Shown: positions 9,773-59,813 of the stretch, piece after piece
Layout: each line of letters starts with the position of its first letter
How positions within the stretch are numbered: the first letter of the stretch is position 1
Assembly (NCBI RefSeq): GCF_030128825.1
Contig: NZ_CP119127.1
Span: 3,771,501-3,835,500, forward strand
Reading direction: 5' to 3'
Length of the DNA stretch: 64,000 nucleotides
Source of the DNA: Sphingobium sp. WTD-1
GTDB lineage: Bacteria > Pseudomonadota > Alphaproteobacteria > Sphingomonadales > Sphingomonadaceae
Program-made: the position numbers and the translations under genes
The notes under the pieces: model-generated
Told to the model about the DNA's origin: nothing
The model's input: only the letters and a program-made list of their open reading frames with translations
The model's database searches: none

Positions 9773-9988
9773 ATGGATCGGATATTTTCCGCCCTATCGG
9801 CACGGATCGCCAGTTGGACCGGCCAGCCACTCGCCTTCATCCTGGCAGTCAGCGTGGTCGCAATCTGGGGCCTGACCGGCCCGCTTTTTCACTATTCCGA
9901 CACTTGGCAACTGGTGATCAACACCGGCACGACCATCGTTACCTTCCTGATGGTCTTCCTGAACGCAACGGTTGTAGCAAAAAGCTAA
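9773..9988 (+). pseudogene. Low-affinity iron permease family protein, 5' part split by the prophage
   Basis: Residues 1-63 are the host sequence [17 protein letters not shown] to TFLMVFL; after the att core the frame reads NATVVAKS and stops in phage DNA. Two membrane segments are visible ([18 protein letters not shown] and [16 protein letters not shown]), together with the family motif [15 protein letters not shown]. The 3' part is at 59597-59813. Fused at CTTCCTGA they give an in-frame 132-residue protein reading VFL-IQNAQNRD. A second in-frame ATG at 9746 adds nine residues; AAGGAG before 9773 supports the later start. Confidence 0.88.
9955..9980 (+). other. attL
   Basis: Core CTTCCTGA (9955-9962), 7 nt, then the phage arm GGTTGTAGCAA (9970-9980). 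This arm is the exact reverse complement of the arm in attR. Confidence 0.88.
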
Positions 9989-10012
9989 CGCTTTCACTGC
10001 TAAGGCCGTCGA

Positions 10013-11593
10013 ATGTCCAAGAACGCAATAATTTACGCACGTTTTAGCTCTGCCGAGCAAAGCAAGGGTCACTCTCTAGAGCGCCAAAAAGAGAACGGCC
10101 AGAAATATGTAGCCGAAAACGGCTACATTCTTTCGGGGATTTTGACCGACGAGGGACGCTCCGCTTTTAGTGGGAAGAACCGTTCAGAAGGCTCGTCACT
10201 CTTTCAGTTCGAGGCAGAAGCCCGCGAAGGCTTGCATACAGGTAAAGTCCTGTGCGTCGAAAATGTCGACCGACTTTCCCGTCAAGGCGCGAAAGCAGCC
10301 GCGCAGCTAATTTGGGCGCTAAACGAAAATGGTGTCGATGTCGCGACCTGGAGCGACAACACGACATATCGGGCCAACAGCAATTCCGACATGATGGAGT
10401 TGTTCGGCCTCATCATCAAAGCGCAACTTGCCCACGAGGAAAGCGTCAAAAAGAGTGAGCGCGTCCTTGATGCTATCGGCAAACGCTATTCCAGAATTGC
10501 AGCAGGCGACCGCACGGTATCAATCGGCAGAGTGCCCGCATGGCTCGAAAAGACCGAAAGTGGGTATGAGCTTAATCCACACCGGACAAAAGTGCTCAAC
10601 GAGATTTTTGATTGGTATGCCAGCGGCGTCGGCATTTACCGAATTGTCGCAAACCTCAATGATCGAAACGAACCGGGCTGGCAGGATTGCGGAGAAGAGC
10701 GCGGCAACGGTTGGTATATGCCGTATATCCATCGCCTGTTGCAGCATCGCGCAGTGCTAGGTGAGTTCATAACCCTCAAAGGCGAACTGATCTCACCTGA
10801 CTTTTTCCCCCAAGCGGTGACAGCAGACAAGTTCATGCGCGCCCAGATTATGCGCGCCGGCAAACAGCGCACAGGTGGCCGCGACACCACACAAATGAGA
10901 AACCTGCTGTCGGGTATGGTGGTCTGCTCCGAATGTCAGGGCAAAGCAGGTTATCAATATCGCGTCCCTTCCACGCGCAGCTACATCACTAAAGCAGGTG
11001 AGCCGCGCATCTATGAGATTTTAGCATCCGAGCATCTGCGTTGCGACCGCTACCGGCGCAAACACTCCTGCTCCAATTCGGTCATTGTCGATTACAAGCT
11101 AGTCGAAAAATCGGTGCTCGACCAACTGCTATCCGTTGCATTTTCCGAGCAAGAGGAAGTCAGCCAGCCCAACCAGTTCGACGTTCAGATTGCCGAAACT
11201 GTCCGGCAAATCGAGCATACCACGCAACGCCTCAACAATCTCTACGATCAGGTAGAAGACGGCATCAAAGGGCTAGGCAGTCGTATCGAACAGCGTCAAG
11301 CCGAATTGCAGCTACTCGAAACTGCACTAAAGGAGCAGCAGGAAGCGCGAGCAATCGACGCAGCAAAGCCCAGCCATTTTGACGATGCAGCGATGATTGC
11401 CAGCTTGCGTGATGACCTCAACAGCGACGACCCAGACATTCGCTATTATGCCCGCACCCAGACCAACGCAGCGCTCAAGCGCGTCATTGAGGAAATTATA
11501 ATCTGCCCCGATGGCACGTTCACTGTCGAAGCCGACATTGCAGTTTGGCACTTCGATAAAAACGGAACCTGTATAGGCGGACAAGCGCTATAA
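10013..11593 (+). CDS. int: Large serine recombinase (phage integrase)
   Basis: 526 residues. The N-terminal resolvase domain begins NAIIYARFSSAEQSKGHSLERQ with the catalytic Ser at about 12, followed by the recombinase domain (about 170-300), a zinc ribbon (VVCSECQGK, then HLRCDRYRRKHSCSN) and a coiled coil (about 390-445). The C-terminal part is typical of phage integrases such as those of phiC31 and TP901-1. It should insert the phage at attB without host factors; excision needs a directionality factor that I could not identify. It lies 33 nt inside attL, which fits the reconstructed attP with inverted arms. The start ATG at 10013 is the only one that keeps the catalytic motif complete. 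Confidence 0.95.
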   Translation: MSKNAIIYARFSSAEQSKGHSLERQKENGQKYVAENGYILSGILTDEGRSAFSGKNRSEGSSLFQFEAEAREGLHTGKVLCVENVDRLSRQGAKAAAQLIWALNENGVDVATWSDNTTYRANSNSDMMELFGLIIKAQLAHEESVKKSERVLDAIGKRYSRIAAGDRTVSIGRVPAWLEKTESGYELNPHRTKVLNEIFDWYASGVGIYRIVANLNDRNEPGWQDCGEERGNGWYMPYIHRLLQHRAVLGEFITLKGELISPDFFPQAVTADKFMRAQIMRAGKQRTGGRDTTQMRNLLSGMVVCSECQGKAGYQYRVPSTRSYITKAGEPRIYEILASEHLRCDRYRRKHSCSNSVIVDYKLVEKSVLDQLLSVAFSEQEEVSQPNQFDVQIAETVRQIEHTTQRLNNLYDQVEDGIKGLGSRIEQRQAELQLLETALKEQQEARAIDAAKPSHFDDAAMIASLRDDLNSDDPDIRYYARTQTNAALKRVIEEIIICPDGTFTVEADIAVWHFDKNGTCIGGQAL

Positions 11594-11619
11594 GCGTCAT
11601 GCAGACGCGCTCATGCAGA

Positions 11620-11646
11620 AAGCCCCCAGCGTATAGCTAGGGGCTT
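11620..11646 (+). terminator. Terminator after the integrase gene
   Basis: AAGCCCC, 13 nt loop, GGGGCTT, about 30 nt after the integrase stop. Confidence 0.65.
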
Positions 11647-11672
11647 CTGGCTATCAGGATGGGCTTCCTAGC
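11646..11672 (+). repeat. Spaced repeat, copy 1
   Basis: TCTGGCTATCA-N6-GCTTCCTAGC. The same two blocks with the same 6 nt spacer recur at 20147-20173. Both copies are next to serine recombinase genes. A third copy of only the second block is at 48650-48659. Confidence 0.75.
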
Positions 11673-11689
11673 AGCCCTGTGAAGCTATC

Positions 11690-11863
11690 TCACATGCGGG
11701 GCAACTCGAAGATCGCAGAGCCAATTTCCAAACGGAAATGCGACTTGTGACGCTCGCAATAAACACGCGCATCATCGAATGAAAATGCAAATTGGTCATC
11801 TTCATATTCGGGATTGCTGTCCAGCGTTTCTACGAAGTTAGCAAGTGCGTCCATGTTAACCAT
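11690..11863 (-). CDS. Small phage protein, unknown
   Basis: 57 residues from the ATG at 11863 (MVNMDALANFVETLDSNPEYEDDQFAFSFDD), chosen because GGAGAAGGAG lies 8-17 nt upstream. The C-terminus is ARVYCERHKSHFRLEIGSAIFELPRM. An acidic first half is followed by a basic C-terminal strand-rich half. No family recognised. Confidence 0.6.
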   Translation of the reverse strand: MVNMDALANFVETLDSNPEYEDDQFAFSFDDARVYCERHKSHFRLEIGSAIFELPRM

Positions 11864-14243: not shown

Positions 14244-15565
14244 GGGACTGTCAGGATTTCCGTGTGCGGCCGGGCGGTTGATCATCAGGCCGCCATGGCT
14301 CTGATGAAACGTTCGCCGAAGATCACGGCAAATTGCGCCTTCGCCATGGTCCACTCACGTGGTGGCATCTTCCACTCTTTCTCCGACCGATTCAAGATCA
14401 GGTAGAGCAGCTTGGTGGCGGCCTCGTCGCTGGGGAAGTGTCCCCTGGCCCTGACAGCCCGCCTGAGCTTCGAGTTCAAAGCTTCGATGGCGTTCGTAGT
14501 GTAGATGATCCGGCGGACCTCGTCGGGGAACGCAAAAAACGGGATCACCTCGCCCCAGGCGCGCCGCCAGCTCTGGCCGATGGCGGGATAGCGCTGCCCC
14601 CAAGGGCCAGCCTCAAATGCTGTCAGCGCCTTTTCGGCGGCATCTGCGTCGGTGGCACGGTAAATCTCCTTGAGCGCGCTGGCGAGGTTCTTTCGGTCCT
14701 TCCAGGAGACGAAGTCCATCGAGTTGCGCAGCAGGTGAACGATGCAGGTCTGGACGATCGCATCGGGGAACACTGCGGTGATCGCATCGGGAAAGCCCTT
14801 CAGGCCGTCAACGACGGCCAGCAGGATGTCTTCAACGCCACGGTTGCGAAGCTCGTTCATCACCCGAAGCCAGAACTTGGCACCCTCATTCTGCTCGAGC
14901 CACAAGCCGAGCACCTCCTTTGCGCCGTCGGCGCGGACGCCCAGCGCAATGTGGATCGCCTTGTTGCGCACCATGCCCTCGTCGCGGATCTTGACCCGGA
15001 TCGCGTCGAAGAAGACCAGCGGGTAAACCGGATCGAGCGGCCGCTGCTGCCAAGTGGCGACCTCATCGAGCACGGCGTCGGTCACCGTGCTAATCAAATC
15101 GGGTGAGACGTCGATGCCGTATAGATCGTGCAGGTGCCTGGTGATCTCGCGGGTGCTCATGCCGCGCGCGTACATCGACACGATCTTGTCGTCGAAGCCG
15201 GGAAAGCGGCGTTGATACTTGGCGATCAACTGCGGGTCGAAGCTCGACTGGCGATCGCGCGGCACGTCGATCGCCAACTTGCCGGTGTCGGTCATTACCG
15301 TCTTCCGACCGTAGCCGTTGCGCATGTTGCCGGCGCCGTCTTCGCCAGCGAGGTGGTGATCCATCTCCGCATTCAGGGCACGCTCTGTCAGCGCCTTCTT
15401 CAGCGAATCGAGCAGACCGCCCTGCTCGAAGGCGGCACTGGCAGCGCCGCCCGCCAAAAGCTGATCGAGAAGCTCATTCGGTATGGCAGGTTCTTTGCGT
15501 CGTGACATAGTGGGACTCCTTGTTGCCCATTATGCCCGGCCGCACACGGAAATCCTGACAGTCCC
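14244..15565 (-). mobile_element. IS256-family insertion sequence, 1322 bp
   Basis: The terminal inverted repeats begin GGGACTGTCAGGATTTCCGT at both ends. An 8 bp target duplication CAGGTCAG flanks it at 14236-14243 and 15566-15573, the length expected for IS256. Confidence 0.95.
14285..15508 (-). CDS. tnp: IS256-family (Mutator-type) transposase
   Basis: 407 residues. Visible DDE features are DLISTVTDAVLDEV, VFFDAIRVKIRD (first Asp), LAVVDGLKGFPDAI (second Asp) and YTTNAIEALNSKLRRAVRARGHFPSDEAATKLLYL with the catalytic Glu in the last block. Length is normal and no frameshift is seen, so the element looks able to move. The start follows an AAGGAGT on the minus strand. Confidence 0.95.
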   Translation of the reverse strand: MSRRKEPAIPNELLDQLLAGGAASAAFEQGGLLDSLKKALTERALNAEMDHHLAGEDGAGNMRNGYGRKTVMTDTGKLAIDVPRDRQSSFDPQLIAKYQRRFPGFDDKIVSMYARGMSTREITRHLHDLYGIDVSPDLISTVTDAVLDEVATWQQRPLDPVYPLVFFDAIRVKIRDEGMVRNKAIHIALGVRADGAKEVLGLWLEQNEGAKFWLRVMNELRNRGVEDILLAVVDGLKGFPDAITAVFPDAIVQTCIVHLLRNSMDFVSWKDRKNLASALKEIYRATDADAAEKALTAFEAGPWGQRYPAIGQSWRRAWGEVIPFFAFPDEVRRIIYTTNAIEALNSKLRRAVRARGHFPSDEAATKLLYLILNRSEKEWKMPPREWTMAKAQFAVIFGERFIRAMAA

Positions 15566-17743: not shown

Positions 17744-18790
17744 CTACATCCTCTGGATAAGGCTCTTTGCCCAAGACATTGCGGTGTCAATGGCCCAGTT
17801 GGTTTGTTGCGGGGACAGCGACGGCATACGATCTGGCCCCGGCCCATGCGCAAAGGGATTGCGAACATCCGTAAACATCTTCTTCAACAAGTCCGCTTCC
17901 CATTGTTCTATGAAGTTGCCATTTGCCCTAGATCCGAGATTGTCGACGTAATTAGCTGCGCCTTTTTCCATGCCAGTGTTCCACCCCTTCTTGCCACTGA
18001 TTATCTTGATAACGCTTTCGAGTGCAGAGACAGCGTGGAATGCAGCAGTTCGATCCGCATTATCCCTGCGATCAATTGCCTCCTTCATTTGCAGATCGAC
18101 ATTTGACCACATCGGATCGGCAACAAGCGACCAGAACGGCTCATGTATCTCATCAGAAGTTAAGCGATCATCAGTGAACTGGAAGAAGCCGTTGTTATAG
18201 CTCAGCGGATAAGCCGCCTGACGCAAGCGCTCATTAATCTCCAGAATTGCTGCACTAAGATGCTCTGTAATCCGCTTGTGGTTTGCAAGAACATGCTGCT
18301 CATTGTTAAAAAGCGAAAACGGACTCATATTGCTATCAAGCGACCGGGCTGCCTCCAATTTGCTGTCCAGCCCATCATTGAGCCGCGCAACAAAATCAGA
18401 ATGTATCCGCAATACCTGCTCAATCAGTGATAGCCGAAGCCCTATAGTGATAAATGGCTGCACCCTCAGGTCATATTTCTGATTAAGATACTCGTTGCTG
18501 ATTACCGAATATAGCTTCCGCTCCGGCCTACCATTGTAATGGTGATACGGGTCTGCCAGACTATCGACACCCAACTCATCACACACCCGCTCATGCGCGT
18601 TTTCAAATGTGGATTCCATTCGGGTCTGATCCTCATAGAGGTCTTGCCCATTCTGCGTCCATTCGGGTTTCGATAGAAGCATGACCCGCAATAGCTTCGA
18701 TGCCTGAAACATGAAGCGCCGATCAAGCTCAGTCCATGCGCTTTTTACAGGCTTATTCGGATAACGATTATAGAAGATGTCGGTCAGCAT
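17744..18790 (-). CDS. AbiJ-NTD4/HEPN-type abortive-infection protein
   Basis: 348 residues from the ATG at 18790. The N-terminus MLTDIFYNRYPNKPVKSAWTELDRRFMFQASKLL matches the AbiJ-NTD4 domain that precedes many abortive-infection proteins. The C-terminal region (about 245-348) has AVSALESVIKIISGK, then LLKKMFTDVRNPFAHGPG: RNPFAH at about 310-315 is the R-x4-H motif of HEPN ribonucleases in the Abi_C group. It is encoded opposite to terS, so it can be expressed in the lysogen. Its likely job is to stop a second phage by cleaving RNA and halting the cell. In-frame ATGs at 18829 and 18844 would extend it, but the family begins near MLTDIF. Confidence 0.7.
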   Translation of the reverse strand: MLTDIFYNRYPNKPVKSAWTELDRRFMFQASKLLRVMLLSKPEWTQNGQDLYEDQTRMESTFENAHERVCDELGVDSLADPYHHYNGRPERKLYSVISNEYLNQKYDLRVQPFITIGLRLSLIEQVLRIHSDFVARLNDGLDSKLEAARSLDSNMSPFSLFNNEQHVLANHKRITEHLSAAILEINERLRQAAYPLSYNNGFFQFTDDRLTSDEIHEPFWSLVADPMWSNVDLQMKEAIDRRDNADRTAAFHAVSALESVIKIISGKKGWNTGMEKGAANYVDNLGSRANGNFIEQWEADLLKKMFTDVRNPFAHGPGPDRMPSLSPQQTNWAIDTAMSWAKSLIQRM

Positions 18791-18831
18791 AACGGTTTTC
18801 AGCCCCAAATCCCGCTTGGTAGCACCCATTA

Positions 18832-18837
18832 TAAATA
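18832..18837 (+). promoter_or_regulatory. TAAATA box
   Basis: TAAATA, here as the full TATAAATA, 11 nt before the ATG at 18843. No Shine-Dalgarno lies between them. Confidence 0.4.
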
Positions 18838-18842
18838 TGAGC

Positions 18843-19355
18843 ATGGAGAAAACCAAGCAAACCAAGTCAACCCTACCGGCGGTAGTCGCAGAACAGCAAG
18901 CTATGGTTCCAGCTGTGACGAACCTAATCGGCAAAGTAACTCGCCCACGTCCCGGTCAGCCCACAAAGCGCACGGAAGCCATTGTAGAAGAGATCGTAGA
19001 TCGAATTGCCGACGGTGAGAGCCTTTTAGCGATCTGCCAGGACGAGCATTTGCCCGGTTACAGCACATTTAACCGCTGGCAGCGCGCAGACCCCGACCTA
19101 CTGCGCTTGGTTGATCTCGCATATGAGTTCCATGCGCGCACGATGGATGACATCATCGACGACATGCTGGCCGGTGGGCCGTCTAGTTGCGGTGAATTCC
19201 GTCGAGACGTGGAACGCGCTGCTCACTTGCGTTGGCGATTGGGCAAACTGAACCGTAGGCGTTTCGGTGACAGGCAGCAGATTGAGATTACCACCTATGA
19301 GCCTGTGGTCATTGATGGCACGATCATCGAAGGACCGGGCGGCGACGGCGTTTAA
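18843..19355 (+). CDS. terS: Terminase small subunit
   Basis: 170 residues. The pattern RPTKRTEAIVEEIVDRIADGESLLAICQDEHLPGYSTFNRWQRADPDLLRLVDLAYEFHARTMDDIIDDM is that of Sf6-type small terminase proteins, with the DNA-binding helix-turn-helix at about 45-80 and the C-terminal oligomerisation part after it. It recognises the packaging site and hands DNA to TerL, which is unusually far away here (2.5 kb, with three other genes between). Start choice is ATG 18843 over 18837, because the TAAATA box would overlap the earlier start. It converges with the recombinase gene, sharing 4 bp at the stops. Confidence 0.8.
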   Translation: MEKTKQTKSTLPAVVAEQQAMVPAVTNLIGKVTRPRPGQPTKRTEAIVEEIVDRIADGESLLAICQDEHLPGYSTFNRWQRADPDLLRLVDLAYEFHARTMDDIIDDMLAGGPSSCGEFRRDVERAAHLRWRLGKLNRRRFGDRQQIEITTYEPVVIDGTIIEGPGGDGV

Positions 19356-20008
19356 TTTAAGCCGATAAGCCGCTTAACACTCGCTGCATACCACTGACCA
19401 CCCTGTGCGGTCGTGATATGTCGGGCATTCAGGTATGCAGCGATATCCCTCAAGGACACACAACCCTCAGCCCTAGCAGCGTCTATATGGGGCTTAACGA
19501 GAGCAGCACGGGCAGCAGTAGCCTTAGTGCGCTTATCCGCGCTAGCGATACGTCCTAGCGCACCTATGGCCGCTATGTTGCCACGATCCCCACCCAGCTT
19601 TGCCCCTTTAGCCTTTGCAGCCGCAAGAGCCTCCTTTGTGCGCTTGCTTATTTGTTCGGCTTCCCATTGTGCAACCTGAGCCATAATGCCGATCATAAAG
19701 CGATCCGCGAAAGGCATATCGGCAAAGCGAATAGGCACATGACTGTCGATGAGGCTATTCAGGAAAGCAGCATTGCGGCTAAGCCTATCCAGCTTTGCAA
19801 CTAACAAGGTCGCTCCGGTAAGGCTCGCATAATCCATTGCGGCCTTCAGTTGCGGGCGGTCATTGTTCCTACCGCTTTCGACTTCCGTAAACTCGGCTAA
19901 CAATGGCGCATCGATGATTGCGGCGACTGCCTGCTTCTGAGCCTCGAGCCCTAGTCCACTGTTGCCCTGCTTGCGAGTGGAAACCCGATAGTAAGCGACG
20001 CACTTCAT
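19352..20008 (-). CDS. Small serine recombinase (resolvase/invertase type)
   Basis: 218 residues from the ATG at 20008. MKCVAYYRVSTRKQGNSGLGLEAQ carries the catalytic Ser at 10; ESGRNNDRPQLKAAMDYA and LLVAKLDRLSRN are the other active-site blocks. RFMIGIMAQVAQWEAEQISKRTKEALAAAKAKG is the long E helix, and the C-terminus has a recombinase HTH (SLRDIAAYLNARHITTAQGGQWYAASVKRLI). It lacks the zinc ribbon of the integrase. It could act as a resolvase or site-specific invertase, or be a hitch-hiker between terS and terL. A repeated site lies upstream at 20147-20173. Confidence 0.85.
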   Translation of the reverse strand: MKCVAYYRVSTRKQGNSGLGLEAQKQAVAAIIDAPLLAEFTEVESGRNNDRPQLKAAMDYASLTGATLLVAKLDRLSRNAAFLNSLIDSHVPIRFADMPFADRFMIGIMAQVAQWEAEQISKRTKEALAAAKAKGAKLGGDRGNIAAIGALGRIASADKRTKATAARAALVKPHIDAARAEGCVSLRDIAAYLNARHITTAQGGQWYAASVKRLIGLN

Positions 20009-20393
20009 GCCGTAACCCTGTTGCAATGTCCGTTGCGCGAGGTGTTACAGCCACAGCACAGCTAGAGCGACCTAAGACTAGAAGCCCCAAAGAAGCCCAG
20101 CACGACTAAGCACTTCTCAGACGCTACATGGTGTGCTGCAAGGCCGTCTGGCTATCACAGTGAGCTTCCTAGCGCTTCTATGACGCAAGGAATGACAGGG
20201 GGTAGTATACACATGCTGAGCAGTGGGGTGGGGTGTGGGTGCAATGGACTATTTTCTGTCTTCCAAAAACCTGACTGTATAGTCTGGATTTTTCACCACT
20301 TTTTCCGAAAGCCGCGACCGTATTATAGATTTGTTACCGTCGTCTCATTATTTTTGGGCTTTAACAACCTAATCCCATGAAGGAGCAAATTAG
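20009..20393. other. Intergenic region between recombinase and DUF3800 gene
   Basis: 385 bp. It holds the spaced repeat copy 2 (20147-20173), a small dyad GACTGTATAGTC (20273-20284) and an AT-rich stretch ending in TATTATAG about 70 nt before the DUF3800 start, a plausible -10. No open frame of note. Confidence 0.4.
20147..20173 (+). repeat. Spaced repeat, copy 2
   Basis: TCTGGCTATCA-N6-GCTTCCTAGC, same orientation as the copy at 11646. The spacer bases differ, so the blocks, not the spacer, are conserved. Confidence 0.75.
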
Positions 20394-21856: not shown

Positions 21857-23284
21857 ATGACTACAAGTTCCAGTAAGGGCATCCGCCCCAACTTCGATGG
21901 CTTTAATGAAGACCAGTGGGAAGCATATCGCCTTGCCACTACCGCAGGTAACAAGTTCCACCTTTTTTACGGGGGTGGTGGTTCCGGCAAAAGCTGGCTC
22001 ATCATGTTCATTGTGTTGCTTCGTGCGTATCGCGCTAGGAACACCCGTCACGCAATTTACCGCCTGACCAGAAACTCTTGTGAGCAGACCCTTTTCAATA
22101 AGACGCTCTTCGAAGTGCTGGATCAGGGATTTCCGGGCCTTCGTGAACAGATCGAAGCAAAGAATGGCATCAGCTATTCGAAGATGATCGTCACCCTCCC
22201 CAACGGCAGTGAACTCTATTTCAACGGGCTTGATGAAAACCGAACATCGAAAGTCCTTGGTGACGAGTTCAACACTGTCTGGCTCAATGAGTGCAACGAG
22301 GACGGCCTAAGTTACAGTCAGGTATCCACTCTAATGACCCGACTTCGAAGAAAGTCGGAAACAGAAGATGGAAAGCTGCTCAAAAACAAGATGTTCTTTG
22401 ATTGCAACCCGCGCTTCTTTAGCGACTGGGAATATAAGGCGTTCAAGCTGCACATTAATCCCAGCGATGGCGACGCAATGCCGCGTGAGCATCAATGGGT
22501 ATCCCAGAAACTCCGAACCGAAGCCAACTTAGAAAATCTCTCGGAAGACTACACCGAAAATATGGAAACGATGAGCGCAAGTGATCGCCGTCGTTATCTG
22601 GAAGGTGAATGGTCCGACGAAAACAGCAACGCATTGTTCAATGAGAGGATGTTTGTCGATCATCGCTTTCCTAAGCCCAACAGCATCGTCACTCCAGCAC
22701 AGACATTGGACCTACTTGCCGATCACGGCATCGAGTTGAACCGTATCACAGTTGCAGTCGATCCAGCGACAAAGGGCGATACAAAGAACGACCTTCACGG
22801 CATCACCGTTCAGGGGATTTCAGGATACGGCAAAGACGCGGAAGTCTATGTGTTGGCCGACTATAGCCGCAACGGCTCTCCTATCCATGTCTGTGATGTT
22901 ATCGCAGAGGCATATAGGGATTGGGGTGCAAGTCGCATCATTCTGGAAGACAATGCGGGTGGTAAGTGGCTGCAAAGCACCATTATGCAACATAGTCCGC
23001 ATCTGCCACTGAAGTTCGTCAATGCCAATCGAACTACGGGCGACAAGTCGTCTCGTGCTGAACCTGTTGCTGCTCAGTATGAGATCGGCAAAGTGCATCA
23101 TGTGGGCACTCACAAAGAGCTAGAAGCGCAAATGTGTGATTGGGGTAGTCCAGCGAGTAGAAGGAAGTCACCTGACCGCATGGACGCGGTAGTTTGGGGC
23201 ATCACTGAACTGCTGGACTTGAACCAAGAGAAGAAGCCCGAACCAACGGGCGGCGGCGCATACCGCTACAAACGACTACGCTAA
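21857..23284 (+). CDS. terL: Terminase large subunit
   Basis: 475 residues. The ATPase half has Walker A GGGGSGKS at residues 39-46 and a Walker B-like FNTVWLNECNED. The nuclease half begins near TVAVDPATKGDTKNDLHG, whose Asp residues form the RNase H-like metal site; ILEDNAGGKWLQSTI and SPDRMDAVVWGITELL complete it, the last with the final Asp. The protein pumps DNA into the prohead and cuts it. Length is normal. Its stop touches the stop of the convergent gene at 23285. Confidence 0.95.
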   Translation: MTTSSSKGIRPNFDGFNEDQWEAYRLATTAGNKFHLFYGGGGSGKSWLIMFIVLLRAYRARNTRHAIYRLTRNSCEQTLFNKTLFEVLDQGFPGLREQIEAKNGISYSKMIVTLPNGSELYFNGLDENRTSKVLGDEFNTVWLNECNEDGLSYSQVSTLMTRLRRKSETEDGKLLKNKMFFDCNPRFFSDWEYKAFKLHINPSDGDAMPREHQWVSQKLRTEANLENLSEDYTENMETMSASDRRRYLEGEWSDENSNALFNERMFVDHRFPKPNSIVTPAQTLDLLADHGIELNRITVAVDPATKGDTKNDLHGITVQGISGYGKDAEVYVLADYSRNGSPIHVCDVIAEAYRDWGASRIILEDNAGGKWLQSTIMQHSPHLPLKFVNANRTTGDKSSRAEPVAAQYEIGKVHHVGTHKELEAQMCDWGSPASRRKSPDRMDAVVWGITELLDLNQEKKPEPTGGGAYRYKRLR

Positions 23285-23885: not shown

Positions 23886-25313
23886 GTGCCTATCGATGAT
23901 ATTTCCAAAGCAACACCTGAGATTGCTAAACATCACCCGCGTTTTGTTCGTAACCGCGATTTTGCAGATGGCGAAGAAGCCGTAAAAGCAAAGAATTCCA
24001 TCTATCTGCCTGCTGCTAATCCCGCAGATGATGATGCAACATACAACTCGCACCTTTTCCGAACCCGTTTCTTTCCCGCAGCATCAAAGACGCTGCAAGG
24101 CTGGGTCGGCCTCATCAAGCGCAAGCCCGATCAGCTTGGCACAAAGAGCGAGATTATCGGCACGCTCTGCGAACTGCTTACACCCGACTATCTGAACCTC
24201 AACGAACTGACCGAATGGCTGATCCGCGAGACGCTAATCACCAATTTCACCGGACTGCTTGTCGATCACCCAAGCAGGGATGAATTTACCGGACTGAGCG
24301 CCGCCAATGCATTCGAGCAGGGATATCGCCCGTTCATTGCTGGCTATACCGCCGAAAGCATCCTTGAATTGAAGCCCGGCTTGGTCGGTGGAAAGCGCCA
24401 GCTAGTCCGCGTCCGACTGATGGAACAGGATTGCACTCGCATCCGCGAACTGATGGTCAATCAGGGCATCTATCAGGTGCGTATCTGGACCAAGGATGGC
24501 GAGGCATTCATTCCCGGCCCGATCCAAACTCCATTGGTCAACGGCAAGGCATTGGGTGAAATTCCGTTCGTTCTGGTCAGCACGTCGGAAAAGCTCACGC
24601 CGCAGCCATCGCTTTTGCAGCATGTGGTGGATCTCAATCTCCAGCTTTATATCCAGCAGGGTTTGCTCTCCAACGTCCATTACACGTTGAGCGCCCCCAT
24701 CCCCACCATTCGCGGCATTTCGCCGTTGAAGGACAAGGATGACAATTACGTTCTCGACAAGGACGGCCAGCTACAGTTTCCAGACTTTCCGGTAGCCCCC
24801 GGCAGTTTGTGGCTCTTTGAGAGCAAGGACACGGTTGCTGAATATCTGGAATTCAAGGGACAAGGCGCGGCTACGCTCGAAAACTCGGTCAAGGAGATAA
24901 AGGACGAACTGCGCATCGCAGGCCATTCCATTGTCGCTCCCGACAAGCCCGCACCAGAAGCACCAGAAACGCAGATGATCTACCGCGCAGCGGAAATGGC
25001 CATCCTTGCCAGCTTTGCGCGCACAATTTCCGCCAAGATGCTTCGCGCTCTCAAGCTGTTGGCGCGCTGGGCCGATCCGGCGGCAGAAGCTGACCTGACA
25101 TTCTCCGTCAACAAGGACTTCGTGCCACAGAGCTTGTCGCCACAGGCAATCTCTGCGCTCCAAGGTCTATGGCAGGCCGGTGCTATCACGCATGACCAGC
25201 TATTGCTCTGCCTCAAGGATGGTGAAGTGCTGTCGCCGGCGCTCGACGTTGCGGCCGAAATCGAAGCCACGAAGGTCGAGGTCGCGGACAGGCCAAGCAC
25301 TGAGGCTCTATAA
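23886..25313 (+). CDS. Portal protein (DUF4055 type)
   Basis: 475 residues from a GTG start with AGAGGA 5 nt upstream. The opening (TPEIAKHHPRFVRNRDFADGEEAVKAKNSIYLPAANPADDDATYNSHLFRTRFFPAASKTLQGWVGLIKRKP) and the EIPFVLVSTSEKLTPQPSLLQHVVDLNLQLYIQQGLLSNVHYTL block are those of DUF4055 portals. The portal is the dodecameric ring through which DNA enters and leaves the head. It follows TerL and precedes the Mu-F-like protein, the standard order. The stop (TATAATGG) overlaps the next ATG by one base. Confidence 0.88.
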   Translation: MPIDDISKATPEIAKHHPRFVRNRDFADGEEAVKAKNSIYLPAANPADDDATYNSHLFRTRFFPAASKTLQGWVGLIKRKPDQLGTKSEIIGTLCELLTPDYLNLNELTEWLIRETLITNFTGLLVDHPSRDEFTGLSAANAFEQGYRPFIAGYTAESILELKPGLVGGKRQLVRVRLMEQDCTRIRELMVNQGIYQVRIWTKDGEAFIPGPIQTPLVNGKALGEIPFVLVSTSEKLTPQPSLLQHVVDLNLQLYIQQGLLSNVHYTLSAPIPTIRGISPLKDKDDNYVLDKDGQLQFPDFPVAPGSLWLFESKDTVAEYLEFKGQGAATLENSVKEIKDELRIAGHSIVAPDKPAPEAPETQMIYRAAEMAILASFARTISAKMLRALKLLARWADPAAEADLTFSVNKDFVPQSLSPQAISALQGLWQAGAITHDQLLLCLKDGEVLSPALDVAAEIEATKVEVADRPSTEAL

Positions 25314-26909: not shown

Positions 26910-26961
26910 GATTGCTTCCAAGTGGAAGTAACCGAGAACGCCTGTGGCGGGAAGGACAAAA

Positions 26962-27621: not shown

Positions 27622-27643
27622 GCCACCTAAAGAGCCATTGGAA

Positions 27644-27649
27644 TAAATA
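27644..27649 (+). promoter_or_regulatory. TAAATA box
   Basis: TAAATA 82 nt before the capsid start. A hairpin (27651-27675) follows directly. Confidence 0.45.
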
Positions 27650-27650
27650 A

Positions 27651-28775: not shown

Positions 28776-28786
28776 CTTGTGCCTCA

Positions 28787-44600: not shown

Positions 44601-45838
44601 AAGCATTTATCAGCAGAACAGCAGCAGTTCGGGAAGTTCCGACTGGATGCAGGACATCACGATCCAGCCAAGCAAATGGTACGATGTTTCGGTCCAAGTC
44701 GCAGCGCATCGCTGTCAGGTGCAAGTCTATCTTCAGTTCCAGAATGCGTCTGGCGGTGCAGTTTCAACTCCATCGTCTGGCGCCCTAACTCCGCTTAGCG
44801 GCGGCATTAGCATGGGCAACTGGACGCAGGTCGGCTTCAAGGGGCAAGCCCCTTCCGATGCTGTGAAGGCCCGTTTGTATCTTCGCAAATTCGGAACGCT
44901 CAGCAATCAATCTGATAGCTGGGCATGGTTCATGCGCCCGCAAGTGCGCGAGACATTCGCAAATGCTCCGACGCCTTGCAGCTACTCGCCCGGCAACGGC
45001 AGCGCAGTGGCGACCACTCAGCAGGCATCCATCAATAGCGCACAGACTGCAATCGCCACCGCAAACTCGTCCATCGCGAGCCTGAACAATAGCGTCTCGA
45101 CGCTGAATTCCTCCGTGAGCGTCCAGCAGACCGCAATCAACAATCTGAACGGCAAAACCGCTGCCTATTGGCAGGTCAATGCCGTGTCGGGTGGTCGCGC
45201 ACAGTTGACGGTCTTCGCTGATAGCAACGGCGGTGGAGGCGTCGATATTGTGGGCGATCTTCGCATTTCCGGTAACGCGATGATCGGTGGCACGATCAAC
45301 CCGGAAGCGCTGGCTCTACAGCGTTTCGTGAAGCGTATTGGCCCTGTGACAGTGGCGGGCAATCCTGGTGCTACGATGTATTCCGGCAGCCTTGGTCAAA
45401 CCACTGGCTACGGCAGCTACCTGCTGGAAGGCAATCTCTCGTTCACTTATCTGACCGGCAGACAGACGAGCACGCAGAGCGGAAAGCCATATTACATCGA
45501 CTATCTCCAAGACGGCGGCCTGACTATCTACATCAAGAAGAATGGCGTTCTTCTCGCAAGTGCTTCGTGGACCGGCGCGGCTCAGAGCACCTACGCTTCG
45601 CGTTCGTTCTCTGCTGCGCTCACAACGAACTTCGACGGCCCTGACCCGGACACGTTCACCGGTGACGTGACTATCGAAGTTGTCCCGTTCAAGGGCAACA
45701 CCGATACCGGAATGGTCAATCAGGGCGACTACTACACGCGTCAGATCAGCGGCAATTACTTGAACTTCTCGATCAACAATCTGCGGCTGAAATGGACGTT
45801 CATCTAATCCGATAATTACAAGAAAGAGAGGAATATCT

Positions 45839-51600: not shown

Positions 51601-52415
51601 TTAGGTTTCGTGGACAAAGGGTATCCATTGCAGGGCTGAGACGAGATTGACGAAGCCGAGGTAGGACTCTTTGGTTTTGTCGTATCGAGTTGCGATACGC
51701 CGCCAGTTCTTGAGTTTGTTGAAGAGGCGTTCGACAAGATTGCGCCAACGGTATTTTTCGCGATCGTGTGGGATTGGATCGCGCCGATTGCTTTTGGCGG
51801 GAATGACAGCCTCAACGTCAGCATTGGCCAATTCCTCGCGGATGGCATCTGCATCGTAGCCCTTGTCCGCCAACAATGCCTCGATCTTATGAGCAATCAA
51901 ACGGAACAGCGGGCCAAAGCCTTGGATATCGTGGCTCTGGCCCGGCGTCAGGACAAAGCCGAGCGGTCGGCCTTTGGCATCGCAGCGGGCGTGGAGCTTT
52001 GTGCTGAATCCGCCTCGCGATCGGCCAAGCGCCTCGGTTTCCTGAGTCCCTTTTTTATGCCGACGGCACAATGATGTGCTCGGACCACGGTGCTGTCGAT
52101 CATGTCCGCAGTGGCATCACGAGCCACCATTTCGCCCAGTGTCTCGAGCATCGCCTCGAACACCCCGGTCGTAACCCAGCGCCGGTAGCGGCGGAAAACG
52201 CTGTTCCACTTGCCATATTCATCCGGCAAGTGGCGCCATTGCGAACCTGTGCGGGCGATCCACATCATGCCTTCGAAATACAGCCGGTTGTCCTGTGCTG
52301 GACGACAGCCACGACCACGCTCAGATGGCAGTAATGTGCCGATGATCCCCCACTCGTCCTCCGTCAGCCCAATACGCTCGCCCAACGCCACCTCCAAAAG
52401 GCAGCCTTGAATCAA
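51601..52415 (-). CDS. tnp: IS5-family transposase, OrfA + OrfB by -1 frameshift
   Basis: OrfA starts MIQGCLLEVALGERIGLTEDEWGIIGTLLPSERGRGCRPAQDNRLYFEGMMWIARTGSQWRHLP, with the first catalytic region ADMIDSTVVRAHH. OrfB reads EALGRSRGGFSTKLHARCDAKGRPLGFVLTPGQSHD, LLADKGYDADAIREEL (second Asp) and NLVERLFNKLKNWRRIATRYDK (Glu). The -1 shift is at A-AAA-AAG (six A then G). The stop TAA is made with the target TA. Confidence 0.9.
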
Positions 52416-52451
52416 CGCCCGATCCTGCTGTCAACCTTTGTCCACGAAACC
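51604..52451 (-). mobile_element. IS5-family element (second type), 848 bp, copy 1
   Basis: The ends are GGTTTCGTGGACAAAGG and CCTTTGTCCACGAAACC, with TA duplications at 51602-51603 and 52452-52453. It is inserted in an intergenic spot. It is inverted relative to copy 2 at 54902. Confidence 0.93.
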
Positions 52452-52507
52452 TAATATCTCGTCGGATTGAGCAGTCCGGTTGAGTGTCATGTTGACCGAC
52501 TATTTAA

Positions 52508-54154
52508 CCCGTCTTATTCACCGACGGGGGCCTGAAGGGTTGGCGGGAGTGGCATAAGCCTCTGATCTGAATTAGGAACTGGGTGTCTACGCCGGCCCTG
52601 CTGCAGGGCAGAAAATGCCACAGGCCACACCCGCCATGAAAGACGATATCGCAACTTCATTCCGATTCCCAGCGGTCGGCGGGAAGAAGATCACAGCCGC
52701 GTTTGACGGTGGCCGACTGACCTCGGACGGCGGCGTTCTGCTGCTTGCGCAGGCCGAGCGCGCGATGGGGCTCTGCCGGCGGCTTGCGGGTTGCATTGCC
52801 GATCCGCGTGACCCGACGCGGGTGATCCATCGCCTCGATGACATCCTACGTGCCCGGGTGTTCGCGATCGCGTGCGGCTATGAAGATGCCGATGATCTCG
52901 ACGCCCTGCGCGACGATCCGGGCTTCCGCCTGGCGCTGGGCAAGTTGCCGGGATCGGGCGCGGGGCTTGCCAGCCAACCGACGATGAGCCGCTGGGAGAA
53001 TGCTCCGACCACGCGTGAGCTGGCCAGGATGATGGCCGAGATGATCGGCGTCTACTGCGCCAGCTATCCGGCTCCACCAGTGGCGGTGACGCTGGACATC
53101 GATGACACCTGCGATGTCGTGCACGGCTATCAGCAGTTGTCCTTCTGGAACGGGCATCACGGTGAGCGCTGCTTCCTGCCGATCCATGTGTACGACACCG
53201 CGACCGGTCGTCCGGTCGCGATGCTGCTGCGCACCGGTAAGACGCCGTCAGGCGCCGAAGCTGCCGGCCACATCCGGCGCCTGGTGCGTCATATCCGCCG
53301 GTACTGGCCAGAAACGCACATCACCTTCCGCGGCGACGGGCATTATGGCCGCCCCGAAGTCATGGCCTTCTGCGAGGCCCACCGCGTCGATTACGTGTTC
53401 GGCTTGCCGACCAATGCCGCGCTACGTGCTGATCCGGTCATCGTTGCCATCGCAGACGCCTGCGCGGTCAAGCGGGCCACGGCCCAGTATCCGGTCCTGC
53501 GCAACTATGCCGAGACGCACTACGGCGCAAAGAGCTGGAACTGCCAGCGCCGCGTCGTCGCCCGGATCGAGGCCAGCACGCTGGGCATGGATATCCGCTA
53601 CGTCGTCACCTCGCTGACCGAAGGCTCGGCCGAGCATATCTACGACACGCTTTACTGCGCGCGCGGCCAAGCCGAAAACCTGATCAAGCGCCACAAGGCT
53701 CAACTCGCCAGCGATCGCACCTCGTGCCGCTCAGCCAATGCCAATCAAATGCGCCTCATCCTACACACCGCCGCCTACTGGCTGTTGTGGCGCGTCCAGC
53801 AGGCGATCCCCAAGACCACCGCGCTGGCCACGGCCGAGTTCGCAACGCTACGCTTGCGGCTGCTCAAGGTGGCTGCCCGCGTCATCGAAACCTCCTCGCG
53901 TATCCGTCTCGCCTTCGCGTCAGCCTGCCCGGAGGCCGACGTGTTCAAAGCAATCGCCACCAGTCTCCGGCCAGCACCGACATAGCCAGTGCGGCAGTGC
54001 CGCCGAAAGCCCGAGCCCTCGTCCATCAACCTCGAAAAGCCCTTTGCTCCTGCTGCGGTGAAAAACGCCGGCGCTGGCGCTCGCCCAGATCACGCGGCAA
54101 CCGACCCACCAAACCCGAAATACCCCAGTGCAGCGGGCTCATGAATAAGCCGGG
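52508..54154 (+). mobile_element. IS1380-family element, about 1647 bp
   Basis: The inverted ends read CCCGTCTTATTCA and, in reverse, CCCGGCTTATTCA. TTAA flanks both sides (52504-52507 and 54155-54158), consistent with a 4 bp target duplication. Confidence 0.85.
52615..53985 (+). CDS. tnp: IS1380-family transposase
   Basis: 456 residues. The start ITAAFDGGRLTSDGGVLLLAQAERAMGLCRRLA is characteristic of the family. Catalytic blocks include VTLDIDDTCDVVHGYQQLSFWNGHHGERCFLPIHVYD (first Asp), ITFRGDGHYGRPEVMAFCEAHRVDYVFGL (second Asp) and YCARGQAENLIKRHKAQLASDRTSCRSANANQMRLILHTAAYWLL (Glu). The true start may be the ATG at 52636 (MKDDIATSFRFPAVGGKK). Complete frame, so probably active. Confidence 0.95.
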   Translation: MPQATPAMKDDIATSFRFPAVGGKKITAAFDGGRLTSDGGVLLLAQAERAMGLCRRLAGCIADPRDPTRVIHRLDDILRARVFAIACGYEDADDLDALRDDPGFRLALGKLPGSGAGLASQPTMSRWENAPTTRELARMMAEMIGVYCASYPAPPVAVTLDIDDTCDVVHGYQQLSFWNGHHGERCFLPIHVYDTATGRPVAMLLRTGKTPSGAEAAGHIRRLVRHIRRYWPETHITFRGDGHYGRPEVMAFCEAHRVDYVFGLPTNAALRADPVIVAIADACAVKRATAQYPVLRNYAETHYGAKSWNCQRRVVARIEASTLGMDIRYVVTSLTEGSAEHIYDTLYCARGQAENLIKRHKAQLASDRTSCRSANANQMRLILHTAAYWLLWRVQQAIPKTTALATAEFATLRLRLLKVAARVIETSSRIRLAFASACPEADVFKAIATSLRPAPT

Positions 54155-54489
54155 TTAATCAGCCTCATGAAGTCATCCAACGACAGCACGACCAGCGGCT
54201 CTTTCCTATCCGCCTTCACAACGGCGATCGGTGTGAGATCGTTCTGGCCCTTGGCTTGCGTTAAAGCGTCGTAGATCAGAGCAATGGCTTTGCGGGCTTT
54301 GCATTCGACTGAAAAGGGAAACGCTCGCTTTGCGGCGGTTGAAAGCTGAATATCTTCACCGTTGCAGCCCATAGGCGTCGAGCGAACATCATCTGGGGTC
54401 AGGTCGGGATATTTGGCTAGGATCGCGTCACGCACCTTCTGCTGTAACGCACGGCCCTTCGCTTTCGCGGCAGCGGTCGAGATAGCCAT
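54139..54489 (-). CDS. Small phage nuclease-like protein (3' end altered by IS1380)
   Basis: 116 residues now; it begins MAISTAAAKAKGRALQQKVRDAILAKYPDLTPDDVRSTPMGCNGEDIQLSTAAKRAFPFSVECKARK. The spacing GED-x-QLS...PFSVECK fits a PD-(D/E)XK nuclease core. The IS1380 insertion replaces only the last codon: the original ended MRLIK-stop (AAA TAG, stop at 52500-52502); it now ends MRLINPAYS. Its ATG overlaps the endolysin stop. The gene is therefore probably still functional. Confidence 0.6.
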   Translation of the reverse strand: MAISTAAAKAKGRALQQKVRDAILAKYPDLTPDDVRSTPMGCNGEDIQLSTAAKRAFPFSVECKARKAIALIYDALTQAKGQNDLTPIAVVKADRKEPLVVLSLDDFMRLINPAYS

Positions 54490-54901
54490 TAGGATTTCAC
54501 GAACAGCATGGCTTCGGCTGCACGACGCTTTGTCAGCCCCGCCAGGACGCGACCACCGGCCTTGTCCCACCTGGCAAACTGTTGAGCAGCACCAGCATAA
54601 TTGCCCGCGTTGAGCATCCTCAACAGCGTGGACGAGCGCAGCGCACCGACGCCGACATTGAACGCGAAGCTGACCAACGCACCTAGCTGATTAGCACTGA
54701 CCGGCACTTTTACGAGCGCACGAACCTGTGCCTCATATGCATCATATTCCTTGATGAGAGCCGCGTCGGCTTCTGCCTGCGTGATCTTCTGACCAAGCTG
54801 GACCTTCTTGCCGTTCCATGTGGTGAAGCCCCAGCCGATAGTCGGCACTTTTGCGGGGCAGAGATAAGCCGAGAGCCTACAACCCTCGAACTGTCGGATT
54901 A

Positions 54902-55749
54902 GGTTTCGTGGACAAAGGTTGACAGCAGGATCGGGCGTTGATTCAAGGCTGCCTTTTGGAGGTGGCGTTGGGCGAGCGTATTGGGCTGACGGAGGACGAG
55001 TGGGGGATCATCGGCACATTACTGCCATCTGAGCGTGGTCGTGGCTGTCGTCCAGCACAGGACAACCGGCTGTATTTCGAAGGCATGATGTGGATCGCCC
55101 GCACAGGTTCGCAATGGCGCCACTTGCCGGATGAATATGGCAAGTGGAACAGCGTTTTCCGCCGCTACCGGCGCTGGGTTACGACCGGGGTGTTCGAGGC
55201 GATGCTCGAGACACTGGGCGAAATGGTGGCTCGTGATGCCACTGCGGACATGATCGACAGCACCGTGGTCCGAGCACATCATTGTGCCGTCGGCATAAAA
55301 AAGGGACTCAGGAAACCGAGGCGCTTGGCCGATCGCGAGGCGGATTCAGCACAAAGCTCCACGCCCGCTGCGATGCCAAAGGCCGACCGCTCGGCTTTGT
55401 CCTGACGCCGGGCCAGAGCCACGATATCCAAGGCTTTGGCCCGCTGTTCCGTTTGATTGCTCATAAGATCGAGGCATTGTTGGCGGACAAGGGCTACGAT
55501 GCAGATGCCATCCGCGAGGAATTGGCCAATGCTGACGTTGAGGCTGTCATTCCCGCCAAAAGCAATCGGCGCGATCCAATCCCACACGATCGCGAAAAAT
55601 ACCGTTGGCGCAATCTTGTCGAACGCCTCTTCAACAAACTCAAGAACTGGCGGCGTATCGCAACTCGATACGACAAAACCAAAGAGTCCTACCTCGGCTT
55701 CGTCAATCTCGTCTCAGCCCTGCAATGGATACCCTTTGTCCACGAAACC
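54902..55749 (+). mobile_element. IS5-family element (second type), 848 bp, copy 2
   Basis: Same ends as copy 1, inverse orientation, with TA duplications at 54900-54901 and 55750-55751. It interrupts the endolysin gene. Confidence 0.93.
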
Positions 55750-55752
55750 TAG
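54938..55752 (+). CDS. tnp: IS5-family transposase, OrfA + OrfB by -1 frameshift
   Basis: Translation is identical to that of copy 1 at 51601-52415, including the A6G slippery run. OrfA covers 54938-55405 and OrfB about 55282-55752. Here the stop is TAG, again made from the target TA plus the next base. Confidence 0.9.
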
Positions 55753-57105: not shown

Positions 57106-57887
57106 CTAGGCGGTGTTGACAAAAGCTTTCAGCCATAGTCGCGCGGCAGCGAGGTTGATGAAGCTCTCGAACGACAGGACGGTCTTGTCGTAGCGGGTGG
57201 CGATGCGGCGCTGCTGCTTGAGTTTGGCGAACATGCGCTCGACACGATTGCGATCCTTGTAGCGCCGGTAGTCGGGATGGGCCGGCACCTTGCGGTTGGA
57301 GCGCGGCGGGATGACGGGCAGGATGCCTCGCATGAGCAGGTTCTCCCGGAACCTGTCGCCATCATAGCCTTTGTCGGCGAGCAGCGCCCTGGGCTTGGGC
57401 AGCGGCAGGTTCATCAGATCGTCGGCCGCCGTATAGTCCGATGCCTCGCCGCCGGTAAGGATGAAGCCGACAGGGAGGCCCTGATTGTCACAGCGGGCGT
57501 GGATCTTGCTCGTAAAGCCGCCGCGTGATCGACCAAAAGCCTGCGCACAAGCCCCCCTTTTCCGCCCGCTGCCGAGACGTGGCCGCGAACCGTGGTGCTG
57601 TCGATCATGTGCTGCCAGTCGTCGGTGAGGCCCAGATCGACCAACGTTTGCAGCATGGCGTCCCAGACGCCTTGCTCCGCCCAGCGCCGGAACCGGACAT
57701 AGACCGAGTTCCACTTGCCATAGCGCTCGTGCATGTCGCGCCACGGGCAACCGACCCGCAGCACATGCAGCATGCCATTGAGAAAGCGCCGGTTATCGCC
57801 GGCCGGTCGGGCATGCCTCCCACGCTCGGACGGGAGTAGCGGCCCGATCAACTCCCACTCCGCGTCCGACAAATCCCCTCGATCCAT
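57106..57887 (-). CDS. tnp: IS5-family transposase, OrfA + OrfB by -1 frameshift
   Basis: Translations of both frames match copy 1 exactly (OrfA 57414-57887, OrfB 57106-57750), including the A4G6 slip site at 57552-57563 and the TAG completed by the target. Confidence 0.9.
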
Positions 57888-57957
57888 GACCGCTCCCCAA
57901 AGAGCAGCCTTGAATCAGAACACGCACCGATTGGGAATCCCTTTTGTCAACGCCGCC
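57109..57957 (-). mobile_element. IS5-family element (IS427-like), 849 bp, copy 2
   Basis: Apparently identical to copy 1 at 40796, same orientation, with TA duplications at 57107-57108 and 57958-57959. The target was again CTAG. Confidence 0.93.
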
Positions 57958-58053
57958 TAGCAACTCCGCGCTACTGGCTCAGACAGCCCACTCGCTCGCG
58001 AGCAAAGCATCGACCGCTTCTGGGGCATAACTGCGCTTAGACATGGTAAGAAA

Positions 58054-58800: not shown

Positions 58801-58940
58801 TTCTGCCTCCATCATCATTGAACCTACGCAACGATCAACTTGCGCATTGGATCAACGTCGCCAACCATCCACAAGCCTCTTGCCTTTATGTTCCTATTTT
58901 GTTCTCATTCCGTATGACATCGACTCGAAGGGAACGAAAC

Positions 58941-59279
58941 ATGGACAAGCTGGAAGAGGCGTTCGTTGCGCTGAACGCTCATATCGACCTTCATGGCAAG
59001 AAAGGACCGCGCAATGGCTTCGTTGAGGTCGCAAAAGACCTTGGCATGTCGTTCAGCGACCTTTCCGACGCTAACGACATTCACCAGTTCCTTACGATGG
59101 CCGAAGGCGACGCGAAGCTGACCCTGATCTATCTCATGGTCCCGGTCGCGGAAGAGAACCCGCTTGAAGAAAACTACTGGCTGGAATTGTCGGGTCGTGG
59201 CCCTGCGAGCCATGCGAAGGTCTGGCATTTTAAGGGCGGTCAGTTGGTCGACAATGAGCCGCTTCGCCGCGCCGCGTAA
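58941..59279 (+). CDS. Phage protein, unknown (112 aa)
   Basis: 112 residues from the ATG at 58941 with GAAGGGAACG upstream. MDKLEEAFVALNAHIDLHGKKGPRNGFVEVAKDLGMSFSDLSDANDIHQFLTMAEGDAKLTLIYLMVPVAEENPLEENYWLELSGRGPASHAKVWHFKGGQLVDNEPLRRAA reads as an alpha/beta domain. GC content here is closer to the host than in the virion genes, so this end may have been acquired more recently. Confidence 0.6.
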   Translation: MDKLEEAFVALNAHIDLHGKKGPRNGFVEVAKDLGMSFSDLSDANDIHQFLTMAEGDAKLTLIYLMVPVAEENPLEENYWLELSGRGPASHAKVWHFKGGQLVDNEPLRRAA

Positions 59280-59288
59280 AGCGCTCGT

Positions 59289-59558
59289 ATGGGTGCGGCA
59301 TTAAAGTGGGATACGCTGGAGCATTTTACGTCGCGTCAGGCGAATATCTACGTGCATTGTTTCCTGTGCAATCGGACGGCGACCTTCGACAGCGGCGAAC
59401 TGGCTGCGCATTTCCGTGAGCGCGGCTGGGGCATGGGGATGGTGATCGTCTATCAGAAGCTGAAATGCAGCCGCTGCAAAACACCAGCGGGCAAGGTCGG
59501 ACCTACACGACGATTGGCGGACACGCATCCACCGAAAAAGCGCAGTTTCCTGCGATAA
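59289..59558 (+). CDS. Zinc-ribbon-like small phage protein
   Basis: 89 residues, 9 nt after the gene before it. Two Cys pairs, HCFLCNRTATF and LKCSRCKTPAGKV, about 40 residues apart, could bind one zinc; ELAAHFRERGWG between them is a helix. The C-terminus is basic (PPKKRSFLR). It is the last gene before attR. It could be a small DNA-binding protein; with its position near an att site, a directionality factor is possible but not shown. Confidence 0.6.
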   Translation: MGAALKWDTLEHFTSRQANIYVHCFLCNRTATFDSGELAAHFRERGWGMGMVIVYQKLKCSRCKTPAGKVGPTRRLADTHPPKKRSFLR

Positions 59559-59575
59559 TCCGGGCTAGGGCTTTG

Positions 59576-59604
59576 TTGCTACAACCCTCTGATTTGCTTC
59601 CTGA
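59576..59604 (+). other. attR
   Basis: Phage arm TTGCTACAACC (59576-59586), 10 nt, core CTTCCTGA (59597-59604). The arm is the exact reverse complement of the attL arm. Confidence 0.88.
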
Positions 59605-59813
59605 TCCAGAATGCCCAGAACCGCGACGGCGCCGCAATCCAGGCCAAGCTCGACGAACTGATCCGCTCGATCGAGAGCGCGCGCAACGATTTCATCGGCA
59701 TCGAACATCTGACGGAAGCCGAGTTGGAGAAGATCAAGACGATATTGGAGCGCGAATGCGGTGCCGATGGCCCGCATCAGGAAGTGATCGATCGACTGAT
59801 CTCTCGTCGATAG
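59597..59813 (+). pseudogene. Low-affinity iron permease family protein, 3' part
   Basis: From the att core the frame reads FLIQNAQNRDGAAIQAKLDELIRSIESARNDFIGIEHLTEAELEKIKTILERECGADGPHQEVIDRLISRR and stops at TAG 59811-59813. IQN-QNRD--AIQ-KLDELIR and IGIEHLT are the conserved C-terminal blocks of the family (PF04120 type). It has no start of its own here. It completes the 5' part at 9773-9962 in frame (190 + 209 = 399 nt). Confidence 0.88.

Follow-up and report, generated by a model that had tools for sequence, protein, structure and literature searches.

A tailed-phage prophage carrying a large serine integrase splits a PF04120 permease gene in Sphingobium sp. WTD-1

Large serine recombinases (LSRs) recombine a phage attachment site (attP) with a bacterial one (attB) without accessory factors: an integrase dimer on attP meets a dimer on attB, the DNA is cut at a central dinucleotide, and rotation is followed by rejoining. 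In the structure of the Listeria LI/A118 integrase, the zinc-ribbon domain binds each attP half-site at its distal end (Rutherford et al. 2013, PMC3783163). A later survey reports broadly on LSRs that disrupt conserved genes, groups their attB sites by disrupted gene, and has 12.4% of the predicted site-specific integrases targeting a Mg-chelatase gene (Durrant et al. 2022, PMC10083194). Here we describe a prophage inside a permease gene of Sphingobium sp. WTD-1, in a 64,000-nucleotide stretch (hereafter the window; contig NZ_CP119127.1, G000:C1:3771501-3835500) of a 5.67-Mb genome. The insert is a 49.6-kb tailed-phage prophage. The interrupted gene belongs to the PF04120 family, and its putative role in iron transport is taken from the family name, "low affinity iron permease". 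In agreement with a preliminary description, which placed a large-serine-integrase prophage in this gene and held that both attB and attP could be rebuilt, we consider it very probable that a temperate tailed phage was integrated by its own LSR through a 47-bp attP and an attB within the PF04120 gene (Table 1).

The host pieces at the two ends of the insert, 190 and 209 nt long, join into a 399-nt frame that has no internal stop and regains the FLIQNAQNRD block. The in-frame fusion proposed earlier holds, apart from its length of 133 codons, which includes the stop: the frame is 132 codons plus stop and encodes 132 aa. Each piece alone scores above the PF04120 cut-off, and the two cover complementary parts of the profile. 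An intact permease paralogue had been named as a finding that would count against the pairing; a PF04120 profile search of the genome (E ≤ 0.001) returned nothing besides the two pieces. The joined protein had no match among NCBIfam models at E ≤ 0.001. The locus has sucC upstream and nhaA downstream, and G+C content is about 62% in host DNA and 54.6% in the insert. Translation of the left piece in the lysogen gives 63 host residues, followed by NATVVAKS and a stop (71 aa), so that the normal C-terminal half of the permease is lost and the truncated product presumably lacks full function.

Decisive support comes from the empty site in relatives and from a related phage at the same place. The uninterrupted gene, which the preliminary description had suggested seeking in related genomes, is present in two of them (G092 and G093), each giving one unbroken alignment with the joined flanks (1598/1599 bases, 94.8% and 93.8%). 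Across the genus, PF04120 was matched in 82 of 94 genomes; no match was found in 12 of the 94, or in 8 of the 83 of good quality. When 32 permease loci (30 from this genus search and two fetched) were aligned to the joined gene, the bases T, T, C, C, T, G and A of TTCCTGA were found to be kept in 32, 32, 30, 32, 32, 31 and 32 of them, respectively, and the complete TTCCTGA in 29. This strong conservation of the attB core reflects its coding for the FLI(Q) block. One permease copy in the genus (G013:C1:3625782-3626128) runs over two adjacent frames with a frameshift-like break at profile position 50/51, away from the att site; the same genome also has a full-length copy elsewhere.

At the phage side, two copies of the core CTTCCTGA lie 49,642 bp apart, in attL and attR. 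The rebuilt sites have the form seen with LSRs, in which inverted arms flank a short core in an attP of about 50 bp and a simple attB carries the identical core: attP reads TTGCTACAACC-N10-CTTCCTGA-N7-GGTTGTAGCAA, 47 bp with perfectly inverted 11-bp arms, and the shared core is 8 bp. This attP, already put forward in the preliminary description, was recovered from the phage ends, and its layout recurs in the Sphingobium limneticum phage described below. Either arm 11-mer is unique to its own att site within the window, where the core by itself is common (4 copies on the forward and 3 on the reverse strand). When pairs of 32-nt phage pieces were joined at random, at least 11 perfect bases across the join were reached in 6 of 20,000 trials; a looser control that also counted one-sided hairpins gave 6 of 1500. 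We infer that the arm is the zinc-ribbon motif.

A related phage sits at the same point in S. limneticum DSM 25076, with one end on NZ_VYPZ01000045.1 (L034; contig C49 of genome G029) and the right end on contig C35 of the same genome. At its left junction, host ATGGTGTTCCTG is followed by ATCCATACGGTTGTAGCAA; on C35, TTAAGGAATACC takes the place of host DNA after the right phage end TTGCTACAACCCTCTGACTTGCTTCCTG, and a second arm and core, then the host C-terminal fragment, come about 1.5 kb past TTAAGGAATACC. Set side by side, the two phage ends give a 47-bp attP with identical, perfect 11-bp arms. The two prophages thus share a gene, a position, the attP layout and arms, related DNA in the terminase region and at the right end, and integrases that are 74% identical; they differ in that the S. 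limneticum phage, known only from its two ends, stands in tandem with a second element, here called element B, which shares one arm only. Taken together with the core of the window, these junctions narrow the crossover to six or seven bases with no need of an experiment: it would be confined to TTCCTG if the S. limneticum phage recombined with the junction of host and element B, and to TTCCTGA if this phage came first and element B later.

Element B (L047 2999-4474, on C35) also occurs alone in another genome (G054; L045), where it splits the permease gene at the same point and shares one arm. No serine integrase frame was seen in either copy; that of G054 has tyrosine-recombinase-like and IS91-like frames, both named by eye. 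Between the copies in the two species, one end is 93% alike over 143 bases (some 44 of which are host) and the other 96% over 73 bases, as against 70-81% for the host flanks, so that element B looks acquired rather than inherited. Its interior matches DNA in 36 of the 94 genus genomes (G029 included), mostly in short pieces. The preliminary description had reasoned that related strains with the same two fragments and no phage would argue against the insertion. The nearest such case is G054; there, element B interrupts the gene at that very point, which speaks for site-specific insertion and not against it.

The exact right-arm-plus-core pattern was found in 3 of the 94 genus genomes (once in WTD-1, twice in G029 and once in G054), always beside a split permease gene; two more genomes have it with one mismatch, which we take as chance. 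The left pattern is exact in two genomes, and one further match, in G023, was rejected as another insertion, having one mismatch and no permease beside it. Among 397 sampled family genomes (G029 and G054 not among them), the only exact occurrence is at the site in the window, and four others have one mismatch. It is tentatively conceivable, though on balance unlikely, that a small group of elements shares the PF04120 attB for landing: related LSR phages, and an element B that lacks a serine integrase, carries a single phage-like attP arm and spreads with the borrowed phage integrase. If so, the S. limneticum phage would have recombined with the host/B junction, and the integrase would accept a half-foreign attB and build tandem arrays. 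In each of two genomes, an LSR lies in a glycosyltransferase gene about 1-2.5 kb from that genome's permease gene (G054:C1:355450-357003 and G079:C5:517541-519094; target named by Pfam for G054 and by likeness for G079), making two LSR landing sites close together.

The integrase frame of the window is full-length, adjoins attL, and has all three LSR domains in one protein; integration was presumably carried out by this enzyme itself. A single crossover within the core would split the permease gene after codon 63 and yield attL and attR, and excision, which would need a directionality factor, would be expected to restore the gene. This account draws on the joined frame, the rebuilt attP, the LSR frame at attL, the phage genes, the empty gene in G092 and G093, the S. 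limneticum relative, and the occurrence of the exact right-arm pattern beside split permease genes alone. Searched with the integrase sequence, Protein Data Bank (PDB) chains gave no match at E ≤ 1e-3. Phage records gave 114 integrase matches, the best 12 at 25-27% identity, and 213 terminase matches, the best 12 at 34% or less. A search of viral contigs with the integrase alone returned nothing, and one with an alignment of the two integrases returned a single 53% relative (L088), beside an ArsC-like gene. Among 8000 candidate proteins scored, taken without genomic context, 253 relatives were found at E ≤ 1e-40, the nearest at 96%, 74% (S. limneticum) and 70%. With the genome of the window counted in both cases, relatives occur in at least 8 of 397 family genomes (E ≤ 1e-60; for each genome listed, three candidates at most were scored) and in 15 of 94 genus genomes (E ≤ 1e-80).

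A coding attB had been called an unusual target, and this was contradicted by a comparison of 27 loci of this integrase clade (26 from family and genus genomes plus the viral contig L088, the two permease cases included). The host side was assessed at 26 of them, L042 being left out because no integrase start was found there, and at all 26 the host sequence on the integrase side is a coding gene. The targets are comM (6), dprA (5), a glycosyltransferase gene (5), ArsC-like (3) and DedA-like (3) genes, PF04120 (2) and phage-type head genes (2). Besides the permease of the window, the host gene was confirmed by Pfam at 12 loci (L036, L038, L039, L040, L041, L044, L075, L078, L081, L082, L086 and L088), and the remaining ones are named by likeness; the three DedA-like fragments, which we take to be such, had no match in a Pfam scan. 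Most sites were judged from the integrase-side junction only, without core mapping. On a tree of the 27 integrases, the two permease integrases group together with full support (100/100). Target genes cluster by clade (11 label changes vs 18.8 in shuffles, with a value as low in 0/200), and none of the comM, arsC, glycosyltransferase and head-gene targets forms a single clade. A coding attB is therefore ordinary, and the distinctive part is the target gene, PF04120; as an LSR attachment site, this gene was not met in the open-access literature searched on iron permeases with prophages or attB.

Three further loci from this comparison are recorded here for themselves. Elsewhere in the WTD-1 genome, two portal-gene parts (G000:C1:3906873-3907415 and 3960644-3961105; L069, L098, L100; profile 146-321 and 1-148) enclose an insert of about 53 kb that begins with an LSR 38% identical to the prophage integrase. 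The split portal gene lies in a cluster with gene-transfer-agent (GTA)-type genes (TIGR02217, TIGR02218, HK97 capsid), and, judging from these matches, a phage may have disabled the GTA of its host. In G053 (C1, ~380849-381181; L075, L102), an LSR (53% over residues 1-417) directly adjoins the C-terminal end of the capsid gene of a GTA-like cluster that is colinear; the same genome yielded no PF04860 portal match. A third LSR of WTD-1 (G000:C1:4782217-4783797, L043; 45%) lies beside a presumed DedA-like gene.

Between the att sites of the window, the insert has the terminase, portal, major head, tape measure and tail genes of a tailed temperate phage, and its PHROG-named genes run in order, from terminase to tail-fibre proteins, between 21857 and 45807. 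Many other prophage frames were scanned and had no profile match. The second, small serine recombinase could be an invertase. The inverted pair near the right end holds a DDE_Tnp_1_4 transposase (52615-53985), the lysozyme frame and another small frame, and looks like a nested or composite insertion. The protein encoded at 17744-18934 weakly matches AbiJ_NTD4 (5.9e-6, short of the Pfam cut-off) and is a possible phage-defence gene carried by the prophage; it had no PADLOC match, and a PADLOC scan of 10 accessory proteins returned one weak match only.

Table 1. Features of the interrupted permease gene, the att sites and the prophage (window coordinates; IS, insertion sequence)
Feature	Position	Strand	Basis or remark
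PF04120 permease gene, N-terminal 63 codons + 1 nt, ending in crossover core	9773-9962	+	PF04120 4.2e-27, profile 1-59; joined frame
attL core CTTCCTGA	9955-9962	+	crossover narrowed to TTCCTG or TTCCTGA (9956-9961 or -9962) by S. limneticum junctions
Right attP arm GGTTGTAGCAA, in attL; probable zinc-ribbon-domain binding motif	9970-9980	+	exact in S. limneticum; position compared with the accessible part of PMC3783163
Large serine integrase, 526 aa	10013-11593	+	PF00239 (Resolvase), PF07508 (Recombinase), PF13408 (zinc ribbon), all above cut-off
Mutator-family transposase, insertion sequence in prophage	14285-15508	-	PF00872 3.5e-135
Second, small serine recombinase (Resolvase + part of Recombinase)	19352-20026	-	DNA kept in S. 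limneticum phage, 77%
Terminase large subunit	21857-23284	+	phrog_979 2.4e-50
Portal protein	23886-25313	+	phrog_145 4.3e-71
Head morphogenesis protein	25313-26386	+	phrog_241 9.1e-136
Scaffold (26944-27621) and major head protein (27726-28724)	26944-28724	+	phrog_206, phrog_247
Connectors, tail terminator, minor tail protein, tail assembly chaperone	28777-31845	+	phrog_477, 161, 179, 290, 313
Tail tape measure protein	32226-36050	+	phrog_1716 4.8e-40
Tail and tail-fibre region, two long frames (37217-40825, 42043-45807), IS copy between	37217-45807	+	
IS copy 1, DDE transposase frame	40793-41648	-	856 bp identical to 57106-57961
Perfect 854-nt inverted pair (51602-52455, 54898-55751) with DDE transposase frame	51602-55751	.	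one arm domain-scanned
Phage lysozyme domain protein	54489-54848	-	PF00959 2.3e-40
IS copy 2	57106-57961	-	
Right-end phage gene	58818-59279	+	DNA like right end of S. limneticum phage, 69.8% over 328 bases
Left attP arm TTGCTACAACC, in attR	59576-59586	+	
attR core CTTCCTGA	59597-59604	+	
PF04120 permease gene, C-terminal part up to stop codon	59605-59813	+	PF04120 6.4e-17, profile 55-113; joined frame

Some observations sit uneasily with integration by an LSR phage. The dyad of attP is centred on a base and not between two, its 47 bp being an odd number. An arm-like motif shifted inward by about 5 bp, the zinc-ribbon motif looked for in an LSR attB, was sought and rejected: the best match on either side is 6/11, the commonest value in random host stretches and so no better than random host DNA. 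By the accessible text of the LI/A118 paper, such a motif is found in all but one of the LSRs listed there and is usual rather than strictly defining (PMC3783163). Lastly, the prophage holds several insertion sequences, one of them between the two tail-fibre frames.

These insertion sequences (14285-15508, 40793-41648, 57106-57961 and within 51602-55751) mean that the prophage may be defective, and with several such insertions the formation of infectious particles is doubtful. The same insertion could thus now be a decaying relic that neither excises nor forms particles, its permease knock-out permanent and its att sites fossils. This is compatible with LSR integration, and we put it a little below an even chance: the insertion between the tail-fibre frames fits decay, but long open frames encode the integrase, terminase, portal, major head and tape-measure proteins, both att sites fit the S. 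limneticum layout, and an insertion sequence in a tail gene is no bar to excision. Far less credible, and in our view very improbable, is a gene-splitting element of the skin/gin type, whose regulated excision would restore the permease when the host needs it. Such elements are known elsewhere, as the accessible part of PMC5595907 describes, and excision here would restore the frame, as it would after any precise insertion in a coding gene; yet this one is a phage of 50 kb that has structural genes, loss of PF04120 seems tolerated, given the genus genomes in which it was not matched, and nothing was seen that links excision to iron. That the two fragments are unrelated, or a paralogue remnant, and fuse in frame by chance finds a foothold in the several recurrences of the 8-bp core within the window, but the pieces are complementary halves of one profile and the sole PF04120 matches in the genome, and relatives whose alignment runs unbroken through the join and its flanks refute the idea, to which we give next to no credence.

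With a phage integrated by its own LSR as the preferred reading, the locus adds PF04120 to the gene families hit by LSRs. A defined integrase, a 47-bp attP and an attB conserved in the genus together make a candidate tool for DNA integration in sphingomonads, bacteria employed in bioremediation. The recurrence in the genus and the presence of element B at the same site are of specialist interest.

Compared with the described systems, the locus is close to both of those with which we began. As in the accessible account of Listeria LI/A118 (PMC3783163), attP is about 50 bp (here 47 bp) and consists of two half-sites with a distal zinc-ribbon motif, the position that the arms occupy here; unlike in that account, where the LI motif is 5'-TTTAGTATC, the arms have another sequence, and no shifted attB motif was recognized. 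With the gene-disrupting LSRs in the accessible text of the survey, such as those in Mg chelatase and prolyl isomerase genes, it shares an LSR beside the att site, a short identical core, an attB in a conserved gene, and related integrases with a common target gene, whereas the target here, PF04120, is not named in that part of the survey (Durrant et al. 2022, PMC10083194). The mechanism of this prophage is an ordinary one and the finding is real and precisely bounded: LSR phages that settle in bacterial genes are well known, and the present case is a clean, well-bounded example.

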